From Sedimentisphaerales bacterium (GTDB taxonomy: Bacteria; Planctomycetota; Phycisphaerae; Sedimentisphaerales; Anaerohalosphaeraceae), in NCBI GenBank assembly GCA_016926155.1, contig JAFGPC010000210.1:1-48322 (forward strand): a DNA stretch of 48,322 bases, in the 5' to 3' direction. Below, piece by piece: positions 11,901 through 43,489 of the stretch (its first letter is position 1; each line of letters opens with the position of its first letter). The notes under the pieces are model-generated. The model did no database searches. It was not told the origin of the DNA and was given only the letters and a program-made list of their open reading frames with translations. Position numbers and translations under genes: made by a program.

Positions 11901-12929
11901 ATGAATGAATGGATAGATCAACTTCATTGCGTTGACTGCATCGAATGGCTTGGACGAATCGATAAGCCGTTTGCCGATCTGGTGTTTGCCGATCCCCCTT
12001 TCAATATCGGCTATCAATACGACAAGTATCGGGATCGGGTTAGGAGCGAGCAATACGTGGCCTGGACACAAGACTGGATGGCACAGTGTGTTCGGGTATT
12101 GAAACCACACGGATCGTTATATATCGCCATCGGGGATGAATATGCCGCCCATATCCGGCTGATCGGCGAGGAACTGGGGCTGTCGCTGCGTAACTGGATC
12201 ATCTGGCATTATACCTTCGGCCAACAGACCAAGGCCAAGTTTGCACGGGCCCACACACACATTTTCTATTTTGTCTACGATGCGAAGCATTTTACATTCA
12301 ACGATTTCGCTGTCCGCATACCTTCCGACCGACAGTTGATCTACAATGACAGGCGGGCCGATGCTCGGGGCAAGATGCCGGATGACGTGTGGAGTCAATA
12401 CTCGCGTGTATGCGGCACCTTCAAGGAGCGCTGCGGCTGGCATCCCTGTCAGATGCCGGAAATACTGCTAGCCCGGATTATCTCAGTCAGTTCAAATCCG
12501 GGGGATATTGTGCTGGACCCGTTCATCGGATCCGGAACGACGGCCATGGCAGCCAAGAAACTGGGACGACGTTTTGTCGGATTGGATATCTCCGAAAACT
12601 ATGTGCAAAACATACACAAACGGCTTTCCGACCTGGACATTGGATCGAAACCAAAACCCTCTGAGAACTTGTTTGACAGCGAACTGAACTGCCGGGAAAT
12701 TCTTGAACTGCAACGGTTATATGTGGAAATTGGGATCAACGCCGCAGAAGTATTGAATCAACCCAAACTGCTGAGCTTGTATGCCAAACAGTTCAGTATC
12801 CGTATGAATAATGGAAAAGAGTATCCGCCGGGCGATCTGGTCGCCTGTTTGAAGGAGTTAACCACTTGGATACCTCGAAAGCAAAAGGTCTCCTCACATC
12901 TACAATCCTCTTTGTCTGCTCAGCCTTAG
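11901..12929 (+). CDS. DNA N6-adenine/N4-cytosine methyltransferase, beta-class, solo
   Basis: S-adenosylmethionine-dependent DNA methylase of 342 residues. The catalytic motif IV DPPFNIGY (31-38) comes before the SAM-binding motif I DPFIGSGTT (206-214), the circular order of beta-class enzymes such as CcrM and HinfI. The central region with WSQYSRVCGTFKER and WHPCQMPEILL is typical of the family; a C-terminal extension (about 245-342) could bind DNA. No restriction endonuclease or specificity gene is next to it, so it is an orphan (solo) methylase, possibly regulatory. Its last 64 bp overlap the start of the following lnt gene, which suggests coupled translation. The target sequence cannot be told. 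Confidence 0.9.
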   Translation: MNEWIDQLHCVDCIEWLGRIDKPFADLVFADPPFNIGYQYDKYRDRVRSEQYVAWTQDWMAQCVRVLKPHGSLYIAIGDEYAAHIRLIGEELGLSLRNWIIWHYTFGQQTKAKFARAHTHIFYFVYDAKHFTFNDFAVRIPSDRQLIYNDRRADARGKMPDDVWSQYSRVCGTFKERCGWHPCQMPEILLARIISVSSNPGDIVLDPFIGSGTTAMAAKKLGRRFVGLDISENYVQNIHKRLSDLDIGSKPKPSENLFDSELNCREILELQRLYVEIGINAAEVLNQPKLLSLYAKQFSIRMNNGKEYPPGDLVACLKELTTWIPRKQKVSSHLQSSLSAQP

Positions 12930-15688
12930 CGCTGACGGTAATTCAGGTGCCGTATGGGATCAGTTTTCTGGCCTGGGTTGCGTGGGTGCCGTTTCTCGTG
13001 GCGTGTTTTTCTTCGTCACGGACGCGATGGCTTCTGTGGGCATCGTATCCGATCGCATTGACGCACTGGCTAAGCAATGTGTACTGGGTAGGATATGTAA
13101 CGATGCCGGCCTATATCCTGTTTTGTTTTTATCTGGCCCTATACTGGCCGCTACTGATTATAACGATTCGTTTTTGTGTCGAACGAATGAATATGCCGTG
13201 CCCGTGGCGAGAACAAAAGGGAGTTTTTCTTCAACGCCGATGGCCGGTTCCCCTGTTTCTGGCAATGGCGGTTCTGCTGGTGGGCGCTGAGGCCTGGCAG
13301 GGCATTCTGCTGACCGGCTTTAACTGGCGGTTTCTGGCACACAGCCAGTATAAGCATCTGGCCCTGATTCAGATTGCCGATCTTACGGGGCAGTTGGGGA
13401 TTTCCTTTCTCATTGCATTGGTCAATGGTCTTGTGGCCGAGTTGATTGTGAAAGGCCGGCGCATTGGATGGAGTAAGATGCTTCGACCAGGCAACGGTGT
13501 CAAGGTGCTTTTCGTGGGGAGCCTGATTGCCGCATCAATTCTTTACGGAAACCGGCGGATTAAACAGACGGATCAATTTGTTACAGATGGGCCAAAAGTC
13601 GGATCGGTGCAATCCAATATTCCATCCCAGATCAAGGAATTGGATGAGGCTGCCGAGCCGATCCTGCAGGACCTGATTCAGCGCAGCAATCAATGCTTTG
13701 AGGCGGGGGCTTTGCTGGTCGCCTGGCCGGAGACGATTGTACTGGCATCGCTGAATCCCGGGTATGTGCAATACTGCCGACCGGATACGCAACCGAGGCT
13801 TTTCAATGCGATGCTGGGAAGGCATACGGAGGAGAATCATGGGTATGTTCTGACCGGAGCCCATGGGGCCGACCTGGTTTTTGAGGATGACGAGCCGGTC
13901 ATTACAGATCGTTACAATACGGCATTTCTCTATCGACCCGACGGAACACAGGATCCCCAGAGATATGACAAGATCCACCTGGTCCCGTTCGGGGAATATA
14001 TTCCCTTCAAAGACACTGTTCCACCTTTATATAACCTGGTCATGAGCCTCAGCCCTTACGAATATGATTATCATCTGACGGCGGGAACGGAGCATACTGT
14101 TTTTGAGATCGACCAGTCCGGACAGACGTATCGTTTCGGAGTATTGATCTGTTATGAGGATACCGATGAGCAGATCACCCGCCGGACGGTGTTGGGCCGC
14201 TCCGGCCGCAAGCGGGTGGATTTTCTGGTCAATGTCAGCAATGACGGCTGGTACGTGCGCTACAGACCCCCTGCCGGGCCCAGTATCGATCCGAATGCAA
14301 TCACACTGCCGGATGGGTATCGACTCAACGAAGGAACCATTGTGCCCAGTCAGGAACTGGCCCAGCGGACGGTGATCACAGTGTTTCGAGCAGTAGAGAA
14401 CCGCGTGAGTATTTTACGCAGCGTCAATACGGGGATCAGTTGCCTGATCGACTCGGTGGGTCGGATTCATGATGATTTTGCGGCGGGTGATCTACCCAAA
14501 GAAGCGATGAAACGTCAAGGTATTGGGGGGTGGTTTGTCGATACGATTCCAGTGGATCACAGAATCACGGCGTTTAGCCGGACTGGTCCGATACTGAAAC
14601 ACATCGCCGCAGTCCTGTTTGCACTGGTTGCGCTGCCGGCGGTGTTCATGGAAAGGAAACGACGTATGAAGAGCAAGATTCTCTGGGCGACTTTTATCCT
14701 TATTCTGTTGGCCGTTACCGTCGGCTGCAATCTGATGGACGAGCAAGTCATACCGTCAGGAACGAGCCCTGAACCGTTTTCTTCCCAGGCCAATGCATTG
14801 CGGGATGATGCTCTTTCTCTCTTACGGAATGCCTTGACGAATGAGAACAGCTATATTCGGACCAATGCCATCGAAGTGGTCGCCGCGACGGATCGTCATG
14901 AGTTGATGCCGATAGTCACCAATCTGCTGCGAGATGAAATCGCCCCGGTACGATTTGCCGCAGCGCTGGCGGTGGGCGACACTACATATGAAGCAGGCCA
15001 GTTTGCTGCGCAGGAACTTTTAAACGATGTGGATGAACGCGTACGACTCGGAGCAGCATACGCCCTGGTCAAACTGGGAAAGACATCGTATGAAGACCGT
15101 ATCCGCACCGCACTACGCAACCGGGATCATACCGCCCAAGCCAATGCGGCGATGCTCCTTGGCAAGTTGGGGCATCGCAAAGACATTGTCCTTCTTTATG
15201 ATGTTTTAAACAGCACACAGGCCAACAGCCAGGTCCGGATTCAGGCAGTGGAATCGATCGCCCGGCTGGGAGATGACCGGGTGTATCGTGACAAGCTCTG
15301 GCCGCTTCTGATCAGCATCTATCCGGATGATCGTGTGATGGGTATTCGGGGTATGGGCGCTCTCGGAACGGAACTGGCCCGGAATGCGCTGTTAACGATG
15401 TTGCAGGATGATGTACAGGAAGTGCGACTGGCAGCGGCTGAACAACTTGGTCGGCTGGGGGACCGCAGTGGCGAGCAGGAAGTTCTGGATTATCTGGCTC
15501 AGATGCCAACAACCACAGAACAGACGCTGGTCGCCAACAGTCTTGCGACCCATGCGATTGGATCGATTGGGACGGACCGACTGAAGCCTTATCTTCCCAG
15601 ATTGTTGAACGACTCATCCCCGACGATTCAGCTCGCAGCGGCACAATCGGCACTTTTTTTATCTCCACATCCTCAAAGGAATCGTTAA
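12866..15688 (+). CDS. lnt: Apolipoprotein N-acyltransferase fused in frame to a HEAT-repeat lipoprotein
   Basis: One open frame of 940 residues. Residues 1-600 are Lnt, the inner-membrane enzyme that adds the third acyl chain to lipoproteins: seven or so N-terminal membrane segments, then a nitrilase domain with the triad E289 (AWPET), K369 (YDKIHLVPFGEYIPF) and C429 (LICYED), then a last TM (about 578-594). Instead of stopping, the frame continues through ERKRRMKSK into a lipoprotein-type signal ending VTVGC (C621) and about 300 residues of HEAT-like repeats (VRFAAALAVGD, VRLGAAYALVKLG, VRLAAAEQLGRLGD). The TTG start at 12866 has AAGGAG at 8 nt. Topology is consistent: Lnt ends inside, the basic linker stays inside, and HEAT lies outside. 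Either a true fusion or two genes that lost a stop codon; see the internal start. Confidence 0.88.
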   Translation: MDTSKAKGLLTSTILFVCSALALTVIQVPYGISFLAWVAWVPFLVACFSSSRTRWLLWASYPIALTHWLSNVYWVGYVTMPAYILFCFYLALYWPLLIITIRFCVERMNMPCPWREQKGVFLQRRWPVPLFLAMAVLLVGAEAWQGILLTGFNWRFLAHSQYKHLALIQIADLTGQLGISFLIALVNGLVAELIVKGRRIGWSKMLRPGNGVKVLFVGSLIAASILYGNRRIKQTDQFVTDGPKVGSVQSNIPSQIKELDEAAEPILQDLIQRSNQCFEAGALLVAWPETIVLASLNPGYVQYCRPDTQPRLFNAMLGRHTEENHGYVLTGAHGADLVFEDDEPVITDRYNTAFLYRPDGTQDPQRYDKIHLVPFGEYIPFKDTVPPLYNLVMSLSPYEYDYHLTAGTEHTVFEIDQSGQTYRFGVLICYEDTDEQITRRTVLGRSGRKRVDFLVNVSNDGWYVRYRPPAGPSIDPNAITLPDGYRLNEGTIVPSQELAQRTVITVFRAVENRVSILRSVNTGISCLIDSVGRIHDDFAAGDLPKEAMKRQGIGGWFVDTIPVDHRITAFSRTGPILKHIAAVLFALVALPAVFMERKRRMKSKILWATFILILLAVTVGCNLMDEQVIPSGTSPEPFSSQANALRDDALSLLRNALTNENSYIRTNAIEVVAATDRHELMPIVTNLLRDEIAPVRFAAALAVGDTTYEAGQFAAQELLNDVDERVRLGAAYALVKLGKTSYEDRIRTALRNRDHTAQANAAMLLGKLGHRKDIVLLYDVLNSTQANSQVRIQAVESIARLGDDRVYRDKLWPLLISIYPDDRVMGIRGMGALGTELARNALLTMLQDDVQEVRLAAAEQLGRLGDRSGEQEVLDYLAQMPTTTEQTLVANSLATHAIGSIGTDRLKPYLPRLLNDSSPTIQLAAAQSALFLSPHPQRNR
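14666..15688 (+). CDS. Possible internal start: HEAT-repeat lipoprotein (340 aa) within the lnt frame
   Basis: The ATG at 14666 (codon 601 of the fused frame) is preceded by AAAGGA at about 8 nt and begins a textbook lipoprotein precursor: MKSK, a hydrophobic run, then TVGC (Cys21). From here the product would be a stand-alone periplasmic lipoprotein of HEAT/PBS-lyase-type repeats, a scaffold fold with no catalytic motifs. The lipobox is imperfect at position -3 (Thr instead of Leu). If used, it gives both Lnt-HEAT and free HEAT from one gene; if not, signal peptidase II could still cut the fused chain before Cys621. It shares the frame of the preceding entry. Confidence 0.42.
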   Translation: MKSKILWATFILILLAVTVGCNLMDEQVIPSGTSPEPFSSQANALRDDALSLLRNALTNENSYIRTNAIEVVAATDRHELMPIVTNLLRDEIAPVRFAAALAVGDTTYEAGQFAAQELLNDVDERVRLGAAYALVKLGKTSYEDRIRTALRNRDHTAQANAAMLLGKLGHRKDIVLLYDVLNSTQANSQVRIQAVESIARLGDDRVYRDKLWPLLISIYPDDRVMGIRGMGALGTELARNALLTMLQDDVQEVRLAAAEQLGRLGDRSGEQEVLDYLAQMPTTTEQTLVANSLATHAIGSIGTDRLKPYLPRLLNDSSPTIQLAAAQSALFLSPHPQRNR

Positions 15689-16102: not shown

Positions 16103-16978
16103 TTGAGCGCTCTTACGAAAGTCCTGATTATTCTTCTTTCTTTTTCGTCCCTGTTCTTATGCGGGGCCATCGTGACATACGTAGGCTCTGCAAATAACTA
16201 CAAAGACTTGTATAGTGGTCAACTTTCGCAAAATCAAACTCTGAACGACAAAGTCGCCACATTGACGGCGGCGGCACAGGAACAGCGGATGATGACCGAG
16301 CAGAAAATCCAGGAATATGAAAAGCGGATCCAGGTTTTGACCGCGGATAACACCCAACTCAGTGTGGACTTAAACAACGCTCTTCGAGAGAGCATGGGAC
16401 ACCAGAATCGGGCCGACAAGTGGCAGGGTTTGCTGGAAAGTTACGGGCAGACAATGGCCAACCAGGAACTGACGATTAAGTCGATTCAGGAAAAACTGGA
16501 TGCGGCCCGGAGCCAACTGATCGAAGATGAAAAGCAGCTCAACCAGCAAACCGCCAGGGTATACGAGTTGACAGTTCAGATGGATGCGCTGGAAGCGGCT
16601 CGACGCCGAGCGGTTGAGGAGAAAAAGGTCCTGGAGGATAAGCTTAACAAGATCGCCGCCGCCGCAGGGGCAGAGCCCGTCAAGGTGAGCCAAGGTATTG
16701 TTACGCCGGAAAAAACGCAGGTTACAGCAGCGGCGGAATCCCCATCCGATGTCGATCTCAATGCCCTGATCAGTGAAGTGTATGAAAACCTGGCGACGAT
16801 ATCGATCGGCGCTTCAGACGGAGTGCAGAAAGACATGCGTTTTCATGTGACCCGGGGGGACGAGTTTGTTTGCGATGTGGTCATCACGCATGTGGATGCA
16901 GACAAGGCCGCCGGCGTAGTAGAATTGCAGCAGAAACAGGTTCGCGTCGGGGATAACGCCAGTACGAAACTGATGTGA
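16103..16978 (+). CDS. Membrane-anchored coiled-coil protein at the head of the mre operon
   Basis: Unrecognised 291-residue protein. One N-terminal TM helix (about 7-29), a long coiled coil (about 45-190, runs of E, K, Q, with leucine heptads such as LTADNTQLSVDLNNAL), an Ala/Pro-rich linker (about 190-210) and a small C-terminal beta-rich domain (about 220-291) containing GASDGVQKDMRFHVTRGDEF and a closing VRVGDN. The C-terminal part recalls the small beta barrels of MreC-like scaffold proteins, but this is only a resemblance. TTG start at 16103 with AAGGAG at 6 nt. First gene after a good promoter and upstream of mreBCD-mrdA, so it is a candidate envelope-elongation factor, probably facing the periplasm. 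Confidence 0.8.
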   Translation: MSALTKVLIILLSFSSLFLCGAIVTYVGSANNYKDLYSGQLSQNQTLNDKVATLTAAAQEQRMMTEQKIQEYEKRIQVLTADNTQLSVDLNNALRESMGHQNRADKWQGLLESYGQTMANQELTIKSIQEKLDAARSQLIEDEKQLNQQTARVYELTVQMDALEAARRRAVEEKKVLEDKLNKIAAAAGAEPVKVSQGIVTPEKTQVTAAAESPSDVDLNALISEVYENLATISIGASDGVQKDMRFHVTRGDEFVCDVVITHVDADKAAGVVELQQKQVRVGDNASTKLM

Positions 16979-17141: not shown

Positions 17142-17242
17142 CGACCTTGACGACAGCGTTATTTTGCAAATAATCGAGTGAAAGGACCCGGCCAGGAGGC
17201 CAATGGTCCGACGGGCCACTATCCGAATTGAAGGGAGTCAGA

Positions 17243-18298
17243 GTGATACTGGACACGATCTTGGGCTGGTTCAGTGTCGATATGGGTATCGACCTGGGCA
17301 CCTGTAACACTCTCGTCTGCGTTCGAAATGAAGGGATAGTACTTAATGAGCCCTCCGTCGTTGCCGTCCGTAAAGGGACTAACATCGTTTTAAACAACGG
17401 TGAGGCCGTAGGCCTGGTCGCTCGCGAGATGCTCGGTAAAACCCCCGGCTCCATTACCGCCATCCGTCCTCTCAAAGATGGTGTTATCAGCGATTTTGAG
17501 ATTACTGAAGCCATGTTGGGCTATTTCATCCGCAAGGTGCACGGTCGGGGTGGTTTAGTGCGTCCACGTGTTGTGATTGCGGTTCCCAGCGGGATTACGG
17601 CGGTGGAGCGTCGTGCCGTGATCGATAGTGCGGAACGGGCCGGAGCAAGGAAAGTGTACCTTGTCGACGAGCCGATGGCGGCGGGGATCGGAGCGGGTTT
17701 GCCGATCACCGAGCCGACGGCATCGATGATTGTGGATATCGGCGGTGGGACGACCGAGGTGGCGATCATGAGTCTGGCCGATATCAGCACATGCGAGTCG
17801 ATCCGGGTAGGCGGGGACAACTTTGACGAAGCCCTGATCAATCATCTGAAGCGGACCTATAATCTTCTCATCGGTGAACCTCGTTCCGAACAGGTCAAAA
17901 TCCAGATCGGATCGGCAGCACCAATGGAAGAAGAATTAACGATGGAAATAGCCGGGCGGGATACGATCTCCGGTCTGCCACGGAAAATCGTAATCACCAG
18001 TGAAGAGATTCGAGAAGCACTGCGTGAGCCGATTTCGGCAATTATCGAGACGGTGATGCGCACTCTGGAGCGGGCGGAACCGGAACTGGCAGCCGATTTG
18101 ATCGACAACGGAATGCACTTATGCGGCGGTGGGTCACTGTTGCGGGGGATGGATACGGTTCTGTCCAATGCCACGGGTTTGAAAGTCGTTCACGTCGATG
18201 ATCCACTGTCGTGCGTGGCAAGAGGGACCAGCGTGTATTTGGAAAACCTGGAAATATGGAAGGACACGCTGGATCAGACCGGATATTCATGGGAATAA
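17243..18298 (+). CDS. mreB: Rod-shape determining protein MreB
   Basis: Bacterial actin homologue that forms membrane-bound filaments guiding lateral cell-wall synthesis. From GTG 17243 (AAGGGAG at 5 nt; a TTG at 17228 is less likely) it has 351 residues, close to the usual 335-350. Seen: N-terminal hydrophobic ILGWF segment, phosphate-1 loop IDLGTCNTLV, connect-1 VIAVPSGITAVERRAV, phosphate-2 VDIGGGTTEVA, adenosine loop LCGGGSLLRGMD. The hairpin-prone GC-rich stretch just upstream (17197-17220) could affect translation. Followed by mreC, mreD and PBP2. Its presence implies an MreB-based elongation system, which not all planctomycetes keep. Confidence 0.96.
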   Translation: MILDTILGWFSVDMGIDLGTCNTLVCVRNEGIVLNEPSVVAVRKGTNIVLNNGEAVGLVAREMLGKTPGSITAIRPLKDGVISDFEITEAMLGYFIRKVHGRGGLVRPRVVIAVPSGITAVERRAVIDSAERAGARKVYLVDEPMAAGIGAGLPITEPTASMIVDIGGGTTEVAIMSLADISTCESIRVGGDNFDEALINHLKRTYNLLIGEPRSEQVKIQIGSAAPMEEELTMEIAGRDTISGLPRKIVITSEEIREALREPISAIIETVMRTLERAEPELAADLIDNGMHLCGGGSLLRGMDTVLSNATGLKVVHVDDPLSCVARGTSVYLENLEIWKDTLDQTGYSWE

Positions 18299-18406: not shown

Positions 18407-19246
18407 ATGGCTACCAATCAACGAAACATCTCAAGGGGAACCTTATTCGTGGTTCTGCTCCTGGGCGGGTTTTTCCTCCTGATGCTGCCCCAGCGATATA
18501 CGCTTTTCTTGACTGAGGGCTTTCACCGGATACTTGGACCGGTATTGAGTGTAGGACGTCCGACCGAAATTTCGAAAATCCATATGGTCCAACCCGGCCA
18601 AGACGCTGTTTCACAGGATACTTACAACAAATTATATACGATATATCGTAATACGTACGCCCAGCTTCTGGAAATCCAACAGCAGCTTAGCACATTGCAA
18701 CGGATTCGCGCGGGACTGCCGACACCGGGTCCGCCGTTGATTCTGGCACGGGTAAGCAACGCCATTCTAACCGCTGAAGAATGCGCTTTGCTGGTGATTC
18801 CCGTATCCGGTACGGAGGAACTGGAGCAGGGACAATACGTGATCGGGGACGACAGCGTGATCGGAACGATCAGCGCCGTATACAAAACCAGCGCCCGTGT
18901 GCGGCTGGTAACCGACGCTAAACATCGGATGCTGGTGGCAATCGGGCGTACCGGACGATCCGGATATATTCAGGCCTATATGCATGGCCAAGGAGACGGG
19001 ACCACCCGGATCGTTGGGTTGTCCCAAAAGGAATATGATGTGCGAGAAGGCGATGCCGTTTATGCAGCGGCGGACGGGGATCGTCTGGGTACGGAAGTGA
19101 TTATCGGTGAAGTGCGCGAGGTGCGGCATGACCTGGATAATCCGCTGCTATGGGATATTCGTGTCGTTCCTGTTTGTCAGGCGGAAAAGTTATCTGAAAT
19201 AGGAATTGTTGTGATGCATCCAAAAAGTGAAATAAAGTCCAATTGA
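18407..19246 (+). CDS. mreC: Rod-shape determining protein MreC
   Basis: Bitopic periplasmic scaffold that links MreB to PBP2. Residues 279: N-terminal TM (about 10-29), a short coiled coil (about 65-110, YNKLYTIYRNTYAQLLEIQQ) and two beta domains with the MreC-type features VIPVSGTEELEQGQYVIGDDSVIGTI (split across the first barrel) and the closing VREVRHDLDNPLLWDIRVVP. ATG at 18407 has no strong SD. It lies 108 nt after mreB, and its stop overlaps the mreD start in TTGA. Confidence 0.9.
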   Translation: MATNQRNISRGTLFVVLLLGGFFLLMLPQRYTLFLTEGFHRILGPVLSVGRPTEISKIHMVQPGQDAVSQDTYNKLYTIYRNTYAQLLEIQQQLSTLQRIRAGLPTPGPPLILARVSNAILTAEECALLVIPVSGTEELEQGQYVIGDDSVIGTISAVYKTSARVRLVTDAKHRMLVAIGRTGRSGYIQAYMHGQGDGTTRIVGLSQKEYDVREGDAVYAAADGDRLGTEVIIGEVREVRHDLDNPLLWDIRVVPVCQAEKLSEIGIVVMHPKSEIKSN

Positions 19247-19785
19247 GCAATTCAATGCGCTGGATTCGCTTTCTCTTTATACTGCTTATTATTACAGTGC
19301 TGGACGCAGGCAACCTGCTAAACATCATTGCCACGCCAGGTTTGCATATTCGGCCGGATCTGTTGCTGATTGCCATGGTATTTTTTGCCAGTCATCTGGA
19401 AACGACCAATGCGATGACAGTCTCGTTTTTGCTGGGCTTTGTGGCAGATCTGTCGGGAGAACTTTCGATTATGGGGCCGTACACAATCAGCTTTGGGATT
19501 TTCGGATCTTTGTTATGCCAGTTGCGCAAGGTAGTCCTGGTCCGACGAATGCTGTACCAGGCCCTGACAATATTTGTTATGGTCCTTCTGATCCGCGGTC
19601 TGGCTCAATTGCTGCTGATGCTTAAAACACAACACGTCGGCGCTAATGTATATATCGTTCTCTGGGGTACGGCGGCCTATTCGGCGGTGTTCGGGCCGTT
19701 TGCATGGATGATTCTTTCGGGATTGACGGACTGGCTGGGCCTTCGGGAACGGCCACGCTATGGGCCGATACGAATTCGGCATTGA
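19243..19785 (+). CDS. mreD: Rod-shape determining protein MreD
   Basis: Polytopic inner-membrane protein of the elongasome, 180 residues against a usual 160-180, with five or six hydrophobic helices. Typical early block: ITVLDAGNLLNIIATPGLHI followed by PDLLLI and a GFVADLSGE element matching the family's G-x-x-x-D pattern. TTG start at 19243 overlaps the mreC stop; an ATG at 19255 is an alternative. The PBP2 gene follows 2 nt later, so translation is probably coupled. Confidence 0.88.
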   Translation: MSNSMRWIRFLFILLIITVLDAGNLLNIIATPGLHIRPDLLLIAMVFFASHLETTNAMTVSFLLGFVADLSGELSIMGPYTISFGIFGSLLCQLRKVVLVRRMLYQALTIFVMVLLIRGLAQLLLMLKTQHVGANVYIVLWGTAAYSAVFGPFAWMILSGLTDWLGLRERPRYGPIRIRH

Positions 19786-19787
19786 GT

Positions 19788-21902
19788 ATGTATCGACAAC
19801 GACTGCATGCATTTGTGTTTTTCTGCGGGGTACTTCTGATCTCCTGTATTGGGCGTCTGGTGCACCTGCAGACGACGGGGTATTCACACAGCCTGAAGGA
19901 AATCGAAGAGGCACGTGTGCTGCCTCCAAGACAACTACCGACAGTGCGGGGCACGATCTGGGATCGTCAGGGTCGAGCGTTGGCCATTGATCGACCGACC
20001 TTCTATGTGCAAATCAGCTATCAGCTCACACGACTGCTGGATCCTCGTTTCAAGGAAGCTCGCCTGACTCAGTTGATGAACAAAGAAGAAGAAGACCTGA
20101 ATCGGGAAGAGGCGGAGGTGTTATTACAGGAAGAATTGAGCGCTGACTTACGTAATCTGTTTATCGTACTCGATACGTGCGCCGAAATGGCCGGGATTGA
20201 ACCAGACGAGATATATAACAAGGTCCACAAGATTAACGATGACGTATGGCGACTGGCTTTGCATATCGCATGGCGACGAAAAAATCCGGATTCCCCGAAT
20301 GTAAGCAACGAGGATAAAGGCAGGCAAATTACGCCTCTTGCCGTGCTCAAGGCCGATATCGGGGAAATGTACGACTATTATCCTTTGATAGAACTGGAGA
20401 CAGATGCAAAACAACTCAAGGCTCAGGTCGCTTTCGGCGAAATTAAAGGTGTCAGTATCGAACCTCTGGCCAAACGGACTTATCCATACGGTTCAGCCGC
20501 CTGTCACATTCTTGGCTGGGTGGGACCGGCAGAGCCGAATGAGAATCAGACGATGGATTTCGATGAGGACCGGTATTCTCGCTATCTTGGCGGGGAGGTA
20601 TCCGGAAAATGGGGGGTCGAGCGAGCCTGTGAGGTTATTCTACGAGGCAGACGAGGGGAAATCCAATTCAACCTGGACGATGAACTGGTGGATTTTAAGA
20701 AGACCCTTTTCGGCAAGGATGTCCATCTGACATTGGATATCGAGTTGCAAAAACAGTTGGAAGATCTCCTAAGTGATCCGAACGCCCGGTCAGAACAGGA
20801 TACCGGAATCGGTGCGGTCGTGATGGAAGTGGCAAGCGGGGATATACTGGCAATGGTTTCGACACCGACTTTTGATCTGTCCACCGTACGTAAGGATTAT
20901 GGGGATCTCGAAGCTGATCCAGCTGATCCGTTGGTCAATCGGGCACTCTTTCGGGACTATCCACCCGGTTCTACCGCGAAGCCGTTTATTTTGATTGCGG
21001 GATTTCAGGAAAAAAAGGCGGGACCCGATACGATTATCAGTTGTCCCATGGAAAACCAGAAGCAGTATCGATTTCCAAATTGTCTTCTCTTTCGCAAGGG
21101 TAGTTGCCATGACTGGCGCTGGCAGAATGAAGGAGGCAATATCGCCCGAAACGCCATTCGAGGCAGTTGCAATGTGTATTTTTCCCATTTGGCAGACCGT
21201 TTGGACGAGCGGCCATTACAGGAATGGCTGTTTCGTTTCGGTTTTGGGCGGGCAATTCTACCGGGGCCGAATCTGGATGAATACGCCGCTGAACTGGATC
21301 GCGAAAAGGGAATTGAGCGAAATCTGCCTCAGTCCACCGGTTTAATCAGTCGGATTCGTCCCAAAGGTCCGGTCCATACGATCGAGGATATCCCGACAAT
21401 CGGACACAACAGCGAAAACCGGTATATGGGAATCGGACAGGGTATATTCCGTGCGACGGTACTGCAAGGAGCCAATGGAATCGCAGCGATAGCACGGGGC
21501 GGGATTTATAAAAATCCAAGATTGTTCCTGGAAGAAAACGATCCGCACAACGAAACAGATCAAGTGGACCTTGGTTTATTTAAATATACTCTCACAACCA
21601 TCCGGGATGGGATGAATGCCGTCGTTTACAAGGCCGGCGGCACCGCTAATGAGACGTATAAAAACAGCAAACTCAAGGAGGGTAACCGCGGGTTGAATCT
21701 ATTCGGCAAGACCGGATCGACTGAGAAACCAGAACATGCATGGTTCGCCGGTTGGGCGGAGGACAATACAGGGAGGGCTATTGCGATAACTATTATAGTG
21801 GAAGGGGGTCAAAGTGGTGCCAGGGATGCCGCACCTCTTGGATTTGAAGTACTTCGTATCTGCAATGAAATGGGGTACGTCGGTCGCCGAACCACCGATT
21901 AG
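19788..21902 (+). CDS. mrdA: Penicillin-binding protein 2 (elongation transpeptidase)
   Basis: Class B PBP that cross-links peptidoglycan during elongation. From ATG 19788, 2 nt after mreD, it has 704 residues: N-terminal TM (about 7-25), dimerisation/pedestal region, then the transpeptidase domain with SxxK at S395-K398 (PPGSTAKPF), SxN at S460-C-N462 and KTG at K641 (GKTGSTEKP). It is longer than E. coli PBP2 (633), mainly through an insertion at about 100-215 rich in Glu. The mre operon ends here: no rodA follows. Its stop codon lies in a TTAG shared with the stop of ftsI on the other strand. Confidence 0.94.
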   Translation: MYRQRLHAFVFFCGVLLISCIGRLVHLQTTGYSHSLKEIEEARVLPPRQLPTVRGTIWDRQGRALAIDRPTFYVQISYQLTRLLDPRFKEARLTQLMNKEEEDLNREEAEVLLQEELSADLRNLFIVLDTCAEMAGIEPDEIYNKVHKINDDVWRLALHIAWRRKNPDSPNVSNEDKGRQITPLAVLKADIGEMYDYYPLIELETDAKQLKAQVAFGEIKGVSIEPLAKRTYPYGSAACHILGWVGPAEPNENQTMDFDEDRYSRYLGGEVSGKWGVERACEVILRGRRGEIQFNLDDELVDFKKTLFGKDVHLTLDIELQKQLEDLLSDPNARSEQDTGIGAVVMEVASGDILAMVSTPTFDLSTVRKDYGDLEADPADPLVNRALFRDYPPGSTAKPFILIAGFQEKKAGPDTIISCPMENQKQYRFPNCLLFRKGSCHDWRWQNEGGNIARNAIRGSCNVYFSHLADRLDERPLQEWLFRFGFGRAILPGPNLDEYAAELDREKGIERNLPQSTGLISRIRPKGPVHTIEDIPTIGHNSENRYMGIGQGIFRATVLQGANGIAAIARGGIYKNPRLFLEENDPHNETDQVDLGLFKYTLTTIRDGMNAVVYKAGGTANETYKNSKLKEGNRGLNLFGKTGSTEKPEHAWFAGWAEDNTGRAIAITIIVEGGQSGARDAAPLGFEVLRICNEMGYVGRRTTD

Positions 21903-23677
21903 CTGTCGGGCATATCGGCTGCCTTGGAAGCGACAGCTTTTTCCGGCAGTTGTCCGCCATGCATATATTTGAGGGTGTTTTCCATGATTTCACGAAAGAC
22001 CGGGGCCGCGACACGTCCTCCGGAGTACCCGATGCCCAGTGAACGATTGGGTTTACGAATGGAAACCAGGACAACCAGTTCGGGTTTCTCGGCGGGAGCG
22101 CCCCCGACAAAAGATGCGATATAGTTCTTCTCATCATATCCGCCCCCCTGCTCTCTGGGTCGTGCGATATTGGCGGTTCCGGTTTTTCCCCAAGTCTGGA
22201 TACCGGCTATTTTGGCCTGGTCCCCCGTTCCGTTTTTTATCACCTCAACCAGCGCCGTTTCTCGAAGCCATTTCGCGGTTTCCTGCTTGATCACCTGAGC
22301 GACAAAACCGGGATCGGGAGGCACGGGAAAGACCTGGCCTTTTTCGTCAATCATGGCCTTGACCAGATGGGGAATGACCGGATGGCCGTCATTGGCGATA
22401 ATACAGTAGGCCCGAATGATCTGGATGGTGGTGACTGTTAAGGCATGTCCGAAGGGGATGCGAGTGACAGTGTATTTATCCCAGACATTGGTCGGCCAGA
22501 CCACACCGGCATCCTCACCGGGCAGGTCGATGCCTGTCTTTTCTCCAAAACCGAATAATCGAACACCGTCATAAAGCCGTTTTTGCCCTATTTTCAGGCC
22601 GATTTTGGCCATACCGACATTGCTGGATTTGGCAAGGATCTGTTTGACGCTGAGATTTCCGTAGGGATGATTAAGGAATTCACCGATCTTGTATTGTGTG
22701 AAATACCCATTTTCACAGTAGAAGACATCGTTAGAACGAATAGAACCGGCGTCCAGGGCAATGGCAACGGCGATGGGCTTGAAAATACTGCCTGGCTCAT
22801 ATGGATCACACAAGGCACGGTTCTTCAGGGGCAGTTTTTTATCCTCCACATAGCTGGAATACTCGGAGGGAGCAAAGTCGGGCAGGGAAACCAAGGCAAG
22901 GATCTCCCCGGACCGAGGATCCATCACGATACCTACGGCCGACTCAGCCTGATATTTTTGCATCTGTTTAAGTAGGGCCTGCCGGACAAACTGTTGAATT
23001 GTCGCATCAATCGTAAGGACCAGTCCCGCTCCATTATGAACATCCCGGCTGTCATCCAGGGCCATACCGATCGGCCGGCGTCGGGAATCAACAACATAAA
23101 CTTCTTTTCCTTCCCGTCCCTCCAGCAGGGAATTGTATTTTAATTCAAGTCCGGCCACGCCTTCTCTCTTGTCTTCGAGGTATCCCACATATCCAACTAC
23201 GTGGGAGGTCAATGCCCCGCAAGGATAGATTCGCTCCCAGTCAGTCTGAATTCCAATGCCATGGAGATTGCACGCCTGGATTTCGTCCCTCTGGTCGGTT
23301 GTAATTCCCTCTTTGAGCTTGATATAACCGGGTGTCAGCCCACCATAGATTGCAGCACAAATCTCATGGCTGGGGATATCCAGAATCGGCTGAAGCTGCC
23401 AGGCCGCTTCTTTGAGCATGTCGGGACCGGGAAAACTGTTGCGGTCGGCAAAAAGGATATATTTTTCCTGGACATCGGCGAGGATACGGCCACGACAATC
23501 CATAATGGCCCCTCTCTGGGGAGAAACGGGGACAACGGCATGGAGTTGATCGTGAGAATGGAGGCGAGCATTTTGGGCCTGACAATATTGCAGGTGAAAC
23601 AGCCTCCAACCCAATAATCCAAACAGCAGCACCAGAAAGAGCAGGATCAAAATGATGGAGGGCTGTGTTTTTTTCAT
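21899..23677 (-). CDS. ftsI: FtsI / PBP3, division-specific transpeptidase
   Basis: Class B PBP for septal peptidoglycan, 592 residues. TM at about 8-28; pedestal with RGAIMDCRGRILA (about 55-67); transpeptidase domain with SxxK S297-K300 (EPGSIFKP), SxN S351-S-N353 and KTGT at 498-501. No PASTA domains. The start lies 1 nt after the ftsL stop (TGAAATG), as in a coupled dcw operon. It converges on mrdA with a 4-nt overlap of stop codons. FtsI rather than a second PBP2 is chosen because of its dcw neighbours (mraZ, rsmH, ftsL). Confidence 0.93.
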   Translation of the reverse strand: MKKTQPSIILILLFLVLLFGLLGWRLFHLQYCQAQNARLHSHDQLHAVVPVSPQRGAIMDCRGRILADVQEKYILFADRNSFPGPDMLKEAAWQLQPILDIPSHEICAAIYGGLTPGYIKLKEGITTDQRDEIQACNLHGIGIQTDWERIYPCGALTSHVVGYVGYLEDKREGVAGLELKYNSLLEGREGKEVYVVDSRRRPIGMALDDSRDVHNGAGLVLTIDATIQQFVRQALLKQMQKYQAESAVGIVMDPRSGEILALVSLPDFAPSEYSSYVEDKKLPLKNRALCDPYEPGSIFKPIAVAIALDAGSIRSNDVFYCENGYFTQYKIGEFLNHPYGNLSVKQILAKSSNVGMAKIGLKIGQKRLYDGVRLFGFGEKTGIDLPGEDAGVVWPTNVWDKYTVTRIPFGHALTVTTIQIIRAYCIIANDGHPVIPHLVKAMIDEKGQVFPVPPDPGFVAQVIKQETAKWLRETALVEVIKNGTGDQAKIAGIQTWGKTGTANIARPREQGGGYDEKNYIASFVGGAPAEKPELVVLVSIRKPNRSLGIGYSGGRVAAPVFREIMENTLKYMHGGQLPEKAVASKAADMPDS

Positions 23678-23678
23678 T

Positions 23679-23915
23679 TCAATGGACCGTTTGGTTCGGC
23701 TTTTTCTCGGGAAGATGTTCGGCCACCGAGGTCGGACTGACTTGATATTCCAGTTCCAATTGTCTTTTTCGCAAGTGTTCCACCAAACGTTTTTGCTGTA
23801 CCTTGGCTTCTCGATATCGGTTGAAAAGACGGCGCGGCGCAGTCCGTAAATATACAGTCCCGATCAAAATGGCCGTAAGATAAAACACCATGAACAGAAG
23901 TCTGGCGCGCGACAT
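23679..23915 (-). CDS. ftsL: FtsL-like division protein
   Basis: A 78-residue bitopic protein: N-terminal TM (about 5-24), then a short coiled-coil segment with the FtsL-type pattern LRKRQLELEYQVSPTSVAEHL (split as heptads at about 48-68). FtsL with FtsB and FtsQ activates FtsWI at the septum. Size, topology and place between rsmH and ftsI fit FtsL, but sequence in this family is poorly conserved. Starts 17 nt after the LysM gene and ends 1 nt before ftsI. Confidence 0.75.
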   Translation of the reverse strand: MSRARLLFMVFYLTAILIGTVYLRTAPRRLFNRYREAKVQQKRLVEHLRKRQLELEYQVSPTSVAEHLPEKKPNQTVH

Positions 23916-23932: not shown

Positions 23933-24757
23933 TCAGGATTTCGGTAATTTTAAGATCAGCCCGGTAGGGATCGTATGTGGGTCTTTGATCTTATTTTTAT
24001 TCAGATCAAGGATTTCCTTGTATCGATTGCCATTGCCAAGCTTTTCCTGGGCAATATCCCATAGTGTATCATCCGGTCGAACGTTGTACGTGGCGTATAT
24101 CGTCTGGGGGGGCGGCGATGATTCTTTTTCGGCCGGCTTGTCCGCTCCCAAGCTGAAAACTCTCTCCACTCTGGCAAAAAAACCCGGTTCGGGATTGGGC
24201 AACGATTGCGTCTTTTCGACTTTTTGTTCGGTAAATAAATCGGGAATTGTCAGTTCCTGCCCCACTTTGATATCATGCTTATTCGGCAACTGGGGATTGG
24301 CCTGGTAGATCTTATCCACGACCTCGATCTTGTTTCCGAGGATGTCGCCGAAAATGGATTTGGCGATTTTGCCGAGGCTGTCTCCCGGTTGAACAACATA
24401 GGTTCTGGTTTTTCCTTTTACTTCAAGACCTCGTTCCTCCAGCGTTTCCTGCTCCTGCGTAAGAGAATCACCAGTACTTTTGTTTACCTGATGATTCTTA
24501 TTTTCGATGATGATCTCATGTTTGTCCGGAGGAGGAACCTTCCGAAGATCGATACCTCGGTCTTGTAGGATATCCTGTACCTCCTGCTGAGCGACCTGGT
24601 GCAGAAATTCCCCCTGCTGCTGAGGAGGAATGATCGGACTGTTAAGCTGGTCGACATCGCTTTCTTCCAGAACCTGCGGCAGGCCGTTGACCAGAAAAGC
24701 AATAATAACAATAAACACAAGCCCCAACAGCAGTCCAACCTTTGCATCCGCCGTCAT
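23933..24757 (-). CDS. LysM-domain membrane protein inside the dcw cluster
   Basis: A 274-residue protein from ATG 24757 (AAGGAG at 8 nt); an upstream in-frame start would run inside rsmH and is rejected. N-terminal TM (about 6-23), a charged Gln/Glu-rich stalk (about 30-115), LysM1 (about 118-173: YVVQPGDSLGKIAKSIFGD) and LysM2 (about 222-274: YNVRPDDTLWDIAQEKLG). LysM domains bind N-acetylglucosamine-containing glycans such as peptidoglycan. A LysM protein between rsmH and ftsL is not the usual dcw content, so it may be a lineage-specific septal wall-binding factor. The topology puts both LysM domains in the periplasm. Confidence 0.88.
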   Translation of the reverse strand: MTADAKVGLLLGLVFIVIIAFLVNGLPQVLEESDVDQLNSPIIPPQQQGEFLHQVAQQEVQDILQDRGIDLRKVPPPDKHEIIIENKNHQVNKSTGDSLTQEQETLEERGLEVKGKTRTYVVQPGDSLGKIAKSIFGDILGNKIEVVDKIYQANPQLPNKHDIKVGQELTIPDLFTEQKVEKTQSLPNPEPGFFARVERVFSLGADKPAEKESSPPPQTIYATYNVRPDDTLWDIAQEKLGNGNRYKEILDLNKNKIKDPHTIPTGLILKLPKS

Positions 24758-24779
24758 CCCTGAAACTCCTTGTACTGGT

Positions 24780-25703
24780 TCAATCCGTTTTGCGTTGTGC
24801 GATCCGGAGCCTGGCGCTGCGGGAACGTGGATTGGCTTTATTCTCGTCCGCGGCGGCCGTAATCGGCTTAGGCGTGACGATTTCGTAGATTCCCGCTGCC
24901 TGGTTCCGCTTGAAATCATGTTTCACAATCCTGTCCTCGAGACTGTGAAAACTGATCACCGCGATCCGGCCGCCCAACCGAAGCAGGTCCGGCGCAGCCT
25001 TTAACAATCTCTCAAGACAACCCAACTCATCATTCACTGCAATACGAAGCGCCTGGAACGTCCGCGTGGCCGGATGAATCTTCCTGCCCGGCCTTCGGTC
25101 CGGCTGACGCAACGCACGACAAACCAGCAATGCAAGTTCTGTTGTAGTCTGTATCGGCCTTTGGCGTCTTTGTTCTGCAATGAAACGAGCGATCCTTCGA
25201 GAAGCTCTTTCTTCTCCATATTGGTAAAGAATGTCCGCCAGCGTTTTTTCATCGGTTTTATTAATCAAGTCGGCAGCCGTTTTTTCCAACCGGTCATCCA
25301 ACCGCATGTCCAAAGGCATCGGTTGCTGGAAACTAAGACCTCGATTCGGATCTTCGATCTGGCCGGAACAGAATCCCAGATCAGCCAAAATAATATCCAC
25401 CTTTTCAATCGCCAATTGACCAAGGACTTTTTGGATATGGTCAAAGTTCTCCCGTACCAAAATGACCCGACAATTCAGTCCTTCGAGTCGTGAACGAGCC
25501 GTTTCAATACACTGAGGATCCACATCCAGACCAACAATCGTTCCCTCAGGGCCTAAACGACTGCCCAACCGCAGACTATGGCCTCCATATCCTACAGTTG
25601 CATCAACCATGATCGCATCCGGGGGGATACGGATCTGTTCGCTCAGGTTATCGGACAGAACCGATATATGTTTCGGAGTAGCGGGTGATATATGTTTATC
25701 CAC
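24780..25703 (-). CDS. rsmH: 16S rRNA m4C1402 methyltransferase RsmH (MraW)
   Basis: SAM-dependent enzyme that N4-methylates C1402 in the ribosomal P site. 307 residues, usual length about 310. Signatures: N-terminal PKHISVLSDNL, SAM loop VDATVGYGGHS, DVDPQCIETA, DLGFCSGQIEDPNRGLSF, TRTFQALRIAVNDEL and the C-terminal VISFHSLEDRIVKHDF. GTG start at 25703 without a strong SD, 55 nt after the 67-aa ORF. Standard position after mraZ in the dcw cluster. Confidence 0.96.
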   Translation of the reverse strand: MDKHISPATPKHISVLSDNLSEQIRIPPDAIMVDATVGYGGHSLRLGSRLGPEGTIVGLDVDPQCIETARSRLEGLNCRVILVRENFDHIQKVLGQLAIEKVDIILADLGFCSGQIEDPNRGLSFQQPMPLDMRLDDRLEKTAADLINKTDEKTLADILYQYGEERASRRIARFIAEQRRQRPIQTTTELALLVCRALRQPDRRPGRKIHPATRTFQALRIAVNDELGCLERLLKAAPDLLRLGGRIAVISFHSLEDRIVKHDFKRNQAAGIYEIVTPKPITAAADENKANPRSRSARLRIAQRKTD

Positions 25704-25980: not shown

Positions 25981-26457
25981 TTACTCCAGTTCACGGCTTT
26001 GTTCCTGCAAAACGATCTGGCGTGCGTTCATCATCTGTTGCTGGTATTGAACCAAATTGTTTTGCAAGTATTGTTCCCAATCATCCGAATTCCACAACTC
26101 AATATGGTCACGAACGCCAACGAGGGTCAGGTTGTCCCCCAGATTCGCCCGTTTTCGTAATTTCTCACTTAATAGCAAGCGTCCCTGCCGGTCCAGCTCA
26201 ACCCTGCTGGCCAGGGCGAAACTCAGTCGTTCAAAGGAAACGGCTTCATCCGGGGCAGCCGTCCCTGGCGCACCGGCAAGGGCGATTCGCTGGAAGTATT
26301 TGGCCGGATAGAGGCATAGAATGCCGCTGGCACCGAGAACCAGGTAGAAATCACTGCCGTATTCTTCGGTATCGATCTGACTCCTGAGCTTATTGGAGAC
26401 AAAAATACGATTCTTGTCATCCAAAGAATGCTCAAACTCACCTGTTAACATCAACAT
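25981..26457 (-). CDS. mraZ: Transcriptional regulator MraZ
   Basis: AbrB-fold DNA-binding protein, first gene of the dcw cluster, which in studied bacteria binds direct repeats in its own promoter. 158 residues, slightly longer than usual (about 143-152) through the Gln-rich C-terminal tail. Two MraZ repeats: LTGEFEHSLDDKNRIFVSNK (about 4-23) and FALASRVELDRQGRLLLSEK (about 80-99) show the family's D-x-x-[GN]R[IL]x[LVI]P-like core. The first ATG at 26457 has GTGGGG at about 8 nt; ATG at 26451 would match the usual start of the family. Confidence 0.93.
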   Translation of the reverse strand: MLMLTGEFEHSLDDKNRIFVSNKLRSQIDTEEYGSDFYLVLGASGILCLYPAKYFQRIALAGAPGTAAPDEAVSFERLSFALASRVELDRQGRLLLSEKLRKRANLGDNLTLVGVRDHIELWNSDDWEQYLQNNLVQYQQQMMNARQIVLQEQSRELE

Positions 26458-41144: not shown

Positions 41145-42497
41145 TTATCTTTGCGTGCCCGCTTCGCCGGGCTTCATGCTTTCCTTTTCTTTGATAATCT
41201 CCGGATTACGATTGATGCGAATCCAAAGTGTACTGGGATTGTCTCCGGTCGATTGTACAATCATCTTTTCATCGACCTGATCCAGAATTTCTTCCATCGC
41301 ATCCTGATAAATCCGTTGCAGCACAATCTGCGGCCGCTTTTGATATTCCGGTAAAAGACGGTGCAGGTATTCGTATTGGGCTTGTGCATCCTTGATGACA
41401 GTGGTCCGATACGCCTGTGCCTCGGCGATGGTTTGGCCGCTGGCGCCGGACAGGGTAGCCAGCAGCGCCTCACGTCGGCTTTCGATCTCACCAAGTCGCT
41501 GGAGGCTTTGCGCCCCAGCCGTCCCGCTCTCGATCTGAGAGACAAGTTTTTGTCTCTCAGGCTCAGTCTCTTTAAGCTGCCGTAACACTTCTTCCGCTCG
41601 AGGTCCACCTGCCTCGTTGAGAATTTGCTGCGCTTCCGTCTTGGCCTGGGTAATCTGCTGCTGGCGTCCCTGACCGGCGGCAATGGACTCACGAAAAGCC
41701 TCGTTCAGGCGGCGCGGCCAGATAATTTCCAACGCCCGCATGGAATCCACCCGAATCCCGCTATCGATTGCATCGAGTCTCTTTTGCAGTTCCCGCTGTA
41801 CATTTTCAGCAATCCCACCGGCGGTAACAATGGCTTCGTCGATCGTGAATTTAACCAGGGTGCTCACAATTGCATCTTCGGCCAGAGAACGAAGGAGCGG
41901 ATCTACTGTCTGGCCTGCAACATCCAGAAAATCCTGGCCCGGTTCGAGATCGCCGTAATAGACATTACGGAAGAATCGCTCAATATTGTCAATCTGGTAG
42001 ACAAGCTGCCATCGACTGTGCACAATGTTATAGTCAGTTCCCTCTGCTCCAATCATTGTTTCATTTCGCGTCAGACAATAGCCATCCTTACCGGGTGCAA
42101 GTGTTGGCCCTCCCATCCCCCGGGCACCGGACACTTTTTCCTCGGCTGTCATAAAGTACCAGAAGGAATCGATCTGGAGGGTTTGCTTGCGCTCGACCGG
42201 AATTCGAATAATCTCTGTAATCGGCGCTGGAAGATTCCATTTCAAACCCGGCTGCAATATTCGTTGTTCTCCTTCGCCGCCGATCCTTCCAAATAGCAAG
42301 ACCATGGCGTTTTCATCCGGATTGACGGTAAAAATGCCGGAGGTCAGGAACAGCACCACCAGAATAATCATAATGACCTTCAGAATGACAAAACTGACCC
42401 GCAGAGCATCGGTCAGACTCTTGCCGGCGGCATCCAATTCCGGCGCCTGGTTTTCGGTGGGTTCCAATGAGGCGTTCTTTTTTTCGTTTTCTGCCAT
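41145..42497 (-). CDS. hflK: HflK-like SPFH/band-7 membrane protein
   Basis: 450 residues: cytosolic N-tail, one TM (about 33-54), then an SPFH domain (about 57-260: VNPDENAMVLLFGRI, LQPGLKWNLPAPITEIIRIP, IDEAIVTAGGIAENVQRELQ) and a coiled-coil helix (about 265-370) ending in the oligomer region. In E. coli HflK and HflC form a cage around FtsH and control its proteolysis. Compared with E. coli HflK it has an insertion at about 105-135 (VSGARGMGGPTLAPGKDG). Distances to the neighbours are 58 bp (HflC) and 63 bp (P-type ATPase). Confidence 0.88.
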   Translation of the reverse strand: MAENEKKNASLEPTENQAPELDAAGKSLTDALRVSFVILKVIMIILVVLFLTSGIFTVNPDENAMVLLFGRIGGEGEQRILQPGLKWNLPAPITEIIRIPVERKQTLQIDSFWYFMTAEEKVSGARGMGGPTLAPGKDGYCLTRNETMIGAEGTDYNIVHSRWQLVYQIDNIERFFRNVYYGDLEPGQDFLDVAGQTVDPLLRSLAEDAIVSTLVKFTIDEAIVTAGGIAENVQRELQKRLDAIDSGIRVDSMRALEIIWPRRLNEAFRESIAAGQGRQQQITQAKTEAQQILNEAGGPRAEEVLRQLKETEPERQKLVSQIESGTAGAQSLQRLGEIESRREALLATLSGASGQTIAEAQAYRTTVIKDAQAQYEYLHRLLPEYQKRPQIVLQRIYQDAMEEILDQVDEKMIVQSTGDNPSTLWIRINRNPEIIKEKESMKPGEAGTQR

Positions 42498-42555
42498 GAT
42501 CCTTGATCTCTTATCGAACAGAAATGTTCCTGATTACCACGGATTGGAATACTCG

Positions 42556-43461
42556 TTATTTATTCGCGCTGCCTGGATTCTTCAGGTCCGGCATCGTCTT
42601 GAGCAATCCGATCGGATCGACATCAGTCCCCAGAATCACGGTGGACTTCTTTTTCAGGATCTTCTTAAGGGCTTCCAGATCCCGCAGAAACATCGCCAGC
42701 TCCGGATCTCTTTCCAGTTGCTTGTAATATTTGGCCGCTTCCGCGTCGCCTTCTCCCCGGATCGCCTGGGCTTGCGCCTCGACCATCGCCAGCAGTTCGG
42801 TCCGCTTGGCCTCCGCACTGGTCTTGATCTTGGTTGCCTCGGCCTGTCCCTGGGCCAGAATGGTTTCCGTCTTGCGTTTTCGATCGGCCTTCATCCGCTC
42901 GAAAACCTTCTGCGTCACGCTCTCACTGATTGCCAGTTGCTTGATTCCAACCGCCTTGATTTCGATTCCATAGGAATTACGAGCCACGGGCTGGATCATG
43001 TCCAGCATCTCCTTTTCGATCTGTTGAAACTGGACTTTTGCCGGATTGGTGTTCACAAAATCCGTAAAATAATGCTTGCCCACAACCGTGTTCTGCGTAT
43101 TACCCAAAAGGCTGTAAAGGTGCGGCGATGCAGCATTGATATCTCCCACCGAACGGAGGAATTTGATCGGATCCTCCACACTCCAAACCACATAACTGGT
43201 CACAATGATCGGCTCGCCGCCTCGCGTGGTTGTCTCTTCCATCTTACGTTCATAGAGCCGGCCGCGCGAATCATACTTCCTCACGCTTTCAATCGGTTGG
43301 GGCCACTTGAACTTCCATCCCGGTTCAGGAATTGTTCGCACCGGTTCATCAAATCGCAGCACCACCGCCACTTCCGTCTCTCGAACCTGAAATGAAAACA
43401 AAAACAGGATCAGGACGATGGCGATAACGCTTACCAGAATCAAGATCGATACATTCCTCAT
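42556..43461 (-). CDS. hflC: HflC-like SPFH protein
   Basis: 301 residues, close to E. coli HflC (334). N-terminal TM (about 5-24), SPFH core (about 25-200: VRETEVAVVLRFDEPVRTI, GWKFKWPQPIESVRKYDSRG, YGIEIKAVGIKQLAISESV) and an Ala/Glu/Gln-rich helix (about 205-265: RKRKTETILAQGQAEATKIK). This is the partner of HflK in the FtsH-regulating ring. 28 bp after the polytopic SPFH gene. The identification rests on the SPFH core and the helical ending; the FtsH gene is not in the window. Confidence 0.9.
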   Translation of the reverse strand: MRNVSILILVSVIAIVLILFLFSFQVRETEVAVVLRFDEPVRTIPEPGWKFKWPQPIESVRKYDSRGRLYERKMEETTTRGGEPIIVTSYVVWSVEDPIKFLRSVGDINAASPHLYSLLGNTQNTVVGKHYFTDFVNTNPAKVQFQQIEKEMLDMIQPVARNSYGIEIKAVGIKQLAISESVTQKVFERMKADRKRKTETILAQGQAEATKIKTSAEAKRTELLAMVEAQAQAIRGEGDAEAAKYYKQLERDPELAMFLRDLEALKKILKKKSTVILGTDVDPIGLLKTMPDLKNPGSANK

Positions 43462-43489
43462 CTTTACACTACTCCCGTAAATCGGTTAT

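Follow-up and report, generated by a model that had tools for sequence, protein, structure and literature searches.

Genes and features at the junction

The analysed window is a stretch of 48,322 nucleotides, contig JAFGPC010000210.1, from a Sedimentisphaerales bacterium of the phylum Planctomycetota. At the centre of the locus, two open reading frames run towards each other and meet at their stop codons. The plus-strand frame (19704..21902, 732 aa) stops with the TAG at 21900-21902, and the minus-strand frame (21899..23677, 592 aa) stops with a TAA, the reverse complement of 21899-21901. The tetramer at 21899-21902 reads TTAG directly in the sequence, and the two stops overlap by 4 nt. The PF00905 and PF03717 families of Pfam are matched by both frames alike, which identifies the products as class B PBPs. 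The nearest NCBIfam model for the plus-strand protein is PBP2/MrdA TIGR03423 (280.8 bits, below the cut-off of 455), and for the minus-strand protein it is the SpoVD/FtsI-type TIGR02214 (384.8 bits, below the cut-off of 688). The names PBP2 and FtsI are assigned because of gene context: mreB, mreC and mreD lie upstream of the one, and mraZ, rsmH, a LysM protein and an ftsL-like ORF lie upstream of the other. A preliminary description of this DNA had presented PBP2 and FtsI as converging genes whose stops share TTAG, and both statements are borne out by these frames.

The canonical mre operon consists of mreBCD-pbp2-rodA, in which rodA is common although not universal. The plus-strand half of the locus follows this order, with mreB, mreC, mreD and a class B PBP on one strand (Table 1). 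The gene for rodA is not found in this operon, and both FtsW/RodA-family genes of the window's genome (G000) are located on other contigs, C117 and C142. Wherever mreB was present in a fetched locus (14 loci), a coiled-coil-like protein adjoins it on the upstream side. The start of PBP2 is putative: mreD extends over the initial 82 nt of the frame, and in many relatives the alignment sets in only near residue 26.

The canonical dcw cluster begins with mraZ-rsmH-ftsL-ftsI-mur, and a LysM protein is not known to belong to its head. The minus-strand half of the locus has mraZ, rsmH and ftsI in this order on a single strand. Between rsmH and ftsI lie a two-LysM protein and the ftsL-like ORF, which recur in relatives with the order unchanged. 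The ftsL-like ORF gave no credible Pfam family; among the 13 fetched loci in which ftsI accompanies the remainder of the dcw head, 11 have a homologue at this position. The true start of the LysM protein is probably near 24758.

Table 1. Features of the convergent locus, in window coordinates
Feature	Position	Strand	Evidence
Coiled-coil-like protein accompanying mreB in relatives	16103..16978	+	No Pfam match, weak SMC-model matches
mreB	17228..18298	+	PF06723, E 1.9e-134; NF010539 over cut-off
mreC	18407..19246	+	PF04085 over cut-off
mreD	19243..19785	+	PF04093 and TIGR03426 over cut-offs
PBP2 (mrdA-like), class B PBP, last gene of the mre operon	19704..21902	+	PF00905 + PF03717
TTAG overlap of both stop codons	21899..21902	.	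Sequence
Candidate intrinsic terminator for PBP2	21901..21942	+	Hairpin (dG -13.1) + T-run, inside the 3' coding end of ftsI
ftsI, class B PBP, last gene of the dcw-head operon	21899..23677	-	PF00905 + PF03717
ftsL-like ORF, 78 aa, hydrophobic then charged stretch	23679..23915	-	Position and look only
LysM protein, two LysM stretches, hydrophobic segment near the N-terminus	23933..24919	-	PF01476
rsmH (mraW)	24780..25703	-	TIGR00006 over cut-off
mraZ	25981..26457	-	PF02381 over cut-off

Elsewhere in the window, a 940-aa ORF (12866-15688) combines LNT_N and CN_hydrolase, the domains of an apolipoprotein N-acyltransferase, with subsequent HEAT repeats, and three successive SPFH/Band 7 proteins (41145-45592) stand beside a P-type ATPase and an ABC transporter. 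Searches of the window gave no Rfam match at the gathering score and no tRNA.

Conservation of the convergent layout

The order-level sample comprised 148 searched genomes, 120 of which had both FtsI and PBP2 among the matches listed. In 87 of these 120 the two matches lie on one contig; in the other 33 they lie on different contigs, and most of these cannot be judged because the contigs end. In 84 of the 87 same-contig genomes the genes converge and under 8 kb separates their domain ends; these genomes are distributed over three families (22/22 in f1, 10/10 in f22 and 52/52 in f4). The three exceptions are single-contig genomes of family f3, whose PBP genes are more than 260 kb apart. Two further f1 genomes (G015 and G018) carry convergent fragments and are counted outside the 84, their best matches being on different contigs. 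Outside the order, 54 of 68 genomes of the class had two or more transpeptidase matches among the matches listed, and none of these 54 had a pair within 10 kb among those matches.

The conservation extends beyond the two terminal genes. Of the 12 adjacent loci retrieved as long stretches, 11 preserve the gene order of both halves on either side of the junction, and the twelfth (G173) is cut by the end of the fetched stretch. An ftsL-like match is absent in two of the 11 intact loci (L246 and L247). The linkage of the halves is nevertheless not universal: the mre and dcw halves are separate in genus g12, and in one genome (G027) each half is intact on a contig of its own.

For comparison, three other convergent pairs were taken from the relative G014, namely hemB/scpB, polA/esterase and a histidine-biosynthesis gene facing a gene of unknown function; all three come from this single genome, and accessory genes account for two of the partners. 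Within the family, the convergent partner was kept in 0/28, 0/23 and 0/27 cases for these pairs, respectively, and in 20/28 for PBP2/FtsI. These counts leave out G014 itself, as well as loci offering under 700 nt of room (1, 6 and 2 dropped for the controls, 1 for PBP2/FtsI). When the partner was not preset, the largest shared convergent neighbour first downstream was found in 1/29, 1/24 and 4/28 loci for the controls, compared to 19/29 for PBP2. The convergent layout is thus kept far more often than the three tested control junctions of the same family. Conservation of the layout had been proposed in the preliminary description as a check, and its outcome is strongly positive both across the order and against the controls. 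No description of a tail-to-tail mre-dcw locus in Planctomycetota was found in the available portions of the literature, including those of PMC5147048 and PMC12283558.

Stop spacing, inserted genes and candidate termination signals

The overlap of the stop codons, unlike the layout, is not conserved. In convergent genes, a 4-nt overlap can take the form of only four tetramers, CTAA, TTAA, CTAG and TTAG, and 58 convergent overlaps are reported for E. coli in the accessible part of PMC2174442. According to gene calls in a 340-kb stretch of G014, 3 of 28 convergent pairs overlap, two of them by exactly 4 nt. Across the order, the stop-to-stop distance of the convergent PBP2/FtsI pairs is exactly -4 in 2 of 84 (G000 and G131) and negative in 15 of 84 (f1 10/22, f4 4/52, f22 1/10). 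The rate in f1 is higher than the base rate in G014, in a comparison that ignores relatedness, and the tight f1 junctions might be selected. The distance lies between -44 and +152 nt in 20 of the 22 f1 pairs; the two outliers, G008 (-263) and G032 (+557), stand outside this range, and G008 is counted as convergent and overlapping. In G008 (L017) the PBP2 frame extends 263 nt into ftsI, perhaps through an assembly frameshift or as a long C-terminal extension. An alignment of 20 f1 genomes revealed that both proteins are conserved until shortly before their ends, after which the tails vary in length and sequence, and that the overlaps fall within these variable C-terminal tails. The 4-nt TTAG overlap is ordinary and does not exceed what is expected by chance.

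In more distant pairs the stops are mostly separated by whole genes. Stops farther apart than 500 nt occur in 35 of the 84 pairs, and an ORF of at least 90 aa lies between them in 32 of the 34 wide pairs scanned, the two without one being G121 and G152. Among the inserts, a glycosyltransferase (PF13528) encoded on the FtsI strand recurs in 22 genomes of the order (e.g., L118 and L129), and another family, with 17 ORFs, lies on the PBP2 strand. Since inserts recur, PBP2 and FtsI are no more than the genes that usually close two operons facing each other. Tolerance of such inserts would not be expected of a device that needs overlapping stops, or antisense RNA between PBP2 and FtsI.

These observations bear directly on the proposal, made in the preliminary description and resembling an excludon, that read-through from each operon produces RNA antisense to the other transpeptidase and so couples elongation with division. 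The ends converge and overlap in the window, the layout is conserved, and mutual regulation via overlapping transcripts is of a known kind, as described in the part of PMC7154746 that is available. However, the length of the overlap is not conserved, the wide pairs mostly contain called ORFs, and the two halves are separate in genus g12. The candidate termination signals point in both directions: no strong hairpin with a T-run follows the FtsI stop, where the best signal within 150 nt reaches -8.5, whereas a terminator candidate is present on the PBP2 side. Antisense balancing is possible and not needed to account for the locus, and as an explanation of it is considered highly improbable.

The candidate on the PBP2 side begins within the PBP2 stop codon. 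It is a hairpin with an 8-bp stem, in which AGCTGTCG (21901-21908) pairs with CGACAGCT (21931-21938), followed by TTTTT (21938-21942). A simple terminator scan restricted to loops of up to 8 nt missed it. The hairpin forms in a 51-nt fold (21895-21945), but a competing structure wins in a 61-nt fold (21890-21950), and 24 of 500 coding windows of equal length (~5%) score as well. As a terminator, the hairpin is plausible rather than proven, and the candidate is not conserved at the junctions of relatives. Further candidates on the FtsI side are weaker and are positioned roughly 340-385 nt inside PBP2, in antisense orientation. The preliminary description had assumed that no terminator lies between the genes; this is not supported for PBP2, where the candidate hairpin and T-run come directly past the stop, and it stands for FtsI, which has no good signal nearby.

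Termination signals were also scored at 51 junctions: all 22 of f1, plus 29 further ones whose stops are separated by no more than 200 nt. A score of -8 or lower was reached in 18/51 on the PBP2 side and 15/51 on the FtsI side, compared to 134/500 and 109/500 coding windows, respectively. Hence, hairpin and T-run signals show no clear enrichment at these 51 junctions relative to the 500 coding windows. A conserved bidirectional terminator was considered as well and was rejected after this scoring; in the window, the T-run is present only on the plus strand, and on the minus strand the 21901-21938 hairpin is followed by AATCGG.

The weakness of these signals leaves room for termination by collision, in which head-on polymerases would end each other's transcripts and convergence would be kept for the sake of clean 3' ends. 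As far as PMC13082048 could be accessed, it reports collision as a prevalent mode of termination for convergent genes in E. coli, and in one of its examples the site is set by an RNA hairpin whose stem is 8 bp long. In the window, a stem of equal length sits right at the junction. However, such a mechanism would serve any convergent pair, leaving it unexplained why PBP2/FtsI is retained over others, and it is inapplicable where whole genes part the ends. As the reason for the conserved layout, collision is unlikely.

Operon neighbourhood and comparison with known systems

The reading that best accommodates these results is that two long-conserved operons end tail to tail, and that what is preserved is the neighbourhood and not a stop-codon or antisense device. 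The probability of this reading is estimated at roughly 0.78. An operon of the form (coiled-coil)-mreB-mreC-mreD-PBP2 faces one of the form mraZ-rsmH-LysM-ftsL-ftsI, with their 3' ends together. The convergent arrangement, common to three families of the order, would be an old state of the lineage that has been retained. The spacing between the stops varies freely, and the TTAG of the window would represent one transient state of this drift. The transcripts of the two operons would terminate independently: that of PBP2 possibly at the hairpin candidate just past its stop, in the tail of ftsI, and that of FtsI perhaps through Rho, which is present, through polymerase collision, or at a weak site inside PBP2. 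The co-location of the elongation and division operons would be maintained by inheritance and possibly also by selection. Neutral inheritance alone may be insufficient, as conservation of this strength calls for a cause.

A stronger form of this reading, which overlaps with it, is that the co-location of the two operons is itself selected through genomic channeling, their orientation being incidental. The portion of PMC5089854 that is available describes dcw gene order as conserved with cell shape and links it to the genomic channeling hypothesis. The layout is retained despite the inserts it tolerates, which is consistent with such selection. The cellular context also agrees with it: in none of the 39 genomes of the window's family does an FtsZ match exceed the family cut-off, and the window's genome holds MreB, PBP2, FtsI and two SEDS proteins. 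In a family without over-cut-off FtsZ, the link of MreB and the PBPs to division may be closer. On the other hand, the separate halves in g12 and the distant PBP genes in the three single-contig f3 genomes indicate that co-location is not required. Selected co-location is a tentative explanation, with the odds somewhat against it.

Sub-threshold matches to FtsZ models occur in 14 of the 39 family genomes. In the window's genome, two adjacent weak matches of 47 and 37 bits (cut-off 295) are located at G000:C199:23249-25649, with relatives in L257 and L258, and possibly represent a divergent tubulin-like pair.

A broader proposal treats the arrangement in the three families as one selected bipartite convergent locus, in which the facing 3' ends would couple the two machines by collision, overlapping transcription or shared location, PBP2/FtsI being merely the commonest junction. 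This proposal is rather improbable.

The overlap itself teaches nothing new, and the conserved convergent mre-dcw locus would matter if it is selected. If the linkage is fixed, it would offer a handle on the co-ordination of elongation and division in bacteria without canonical FtsZ. The natural variants of the junction, in which the ends overlap, are parted by inserts or are separated, would then provide ready comparisons.

Several known systems resemble parts of this locus. In gene content and order, the plus-strand half is the same as the mre operon; it differs in having rodA elsewhere and in being joined tail to tail with the dcw head. The minus-strand half likewise agrees with the dcw cluster in content and order, with the differences that a LysM protein lies between rsmH and the ftsL-like ORF and that ftsI is terminal. 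Excludons and overlapping transcripts share with the locus the opposed genes and overlapping ends, but the conserved tight or overlapping spacing that we infer an excludon would show is not found, given the range in f1 and the wide pairs across the order. At the level of the overlap itself, there is no difference from the 4-nt convergent gene overlaps of prokaryotes described in the accessible part of PMC2174442: the tetramer and the geometry are the same.
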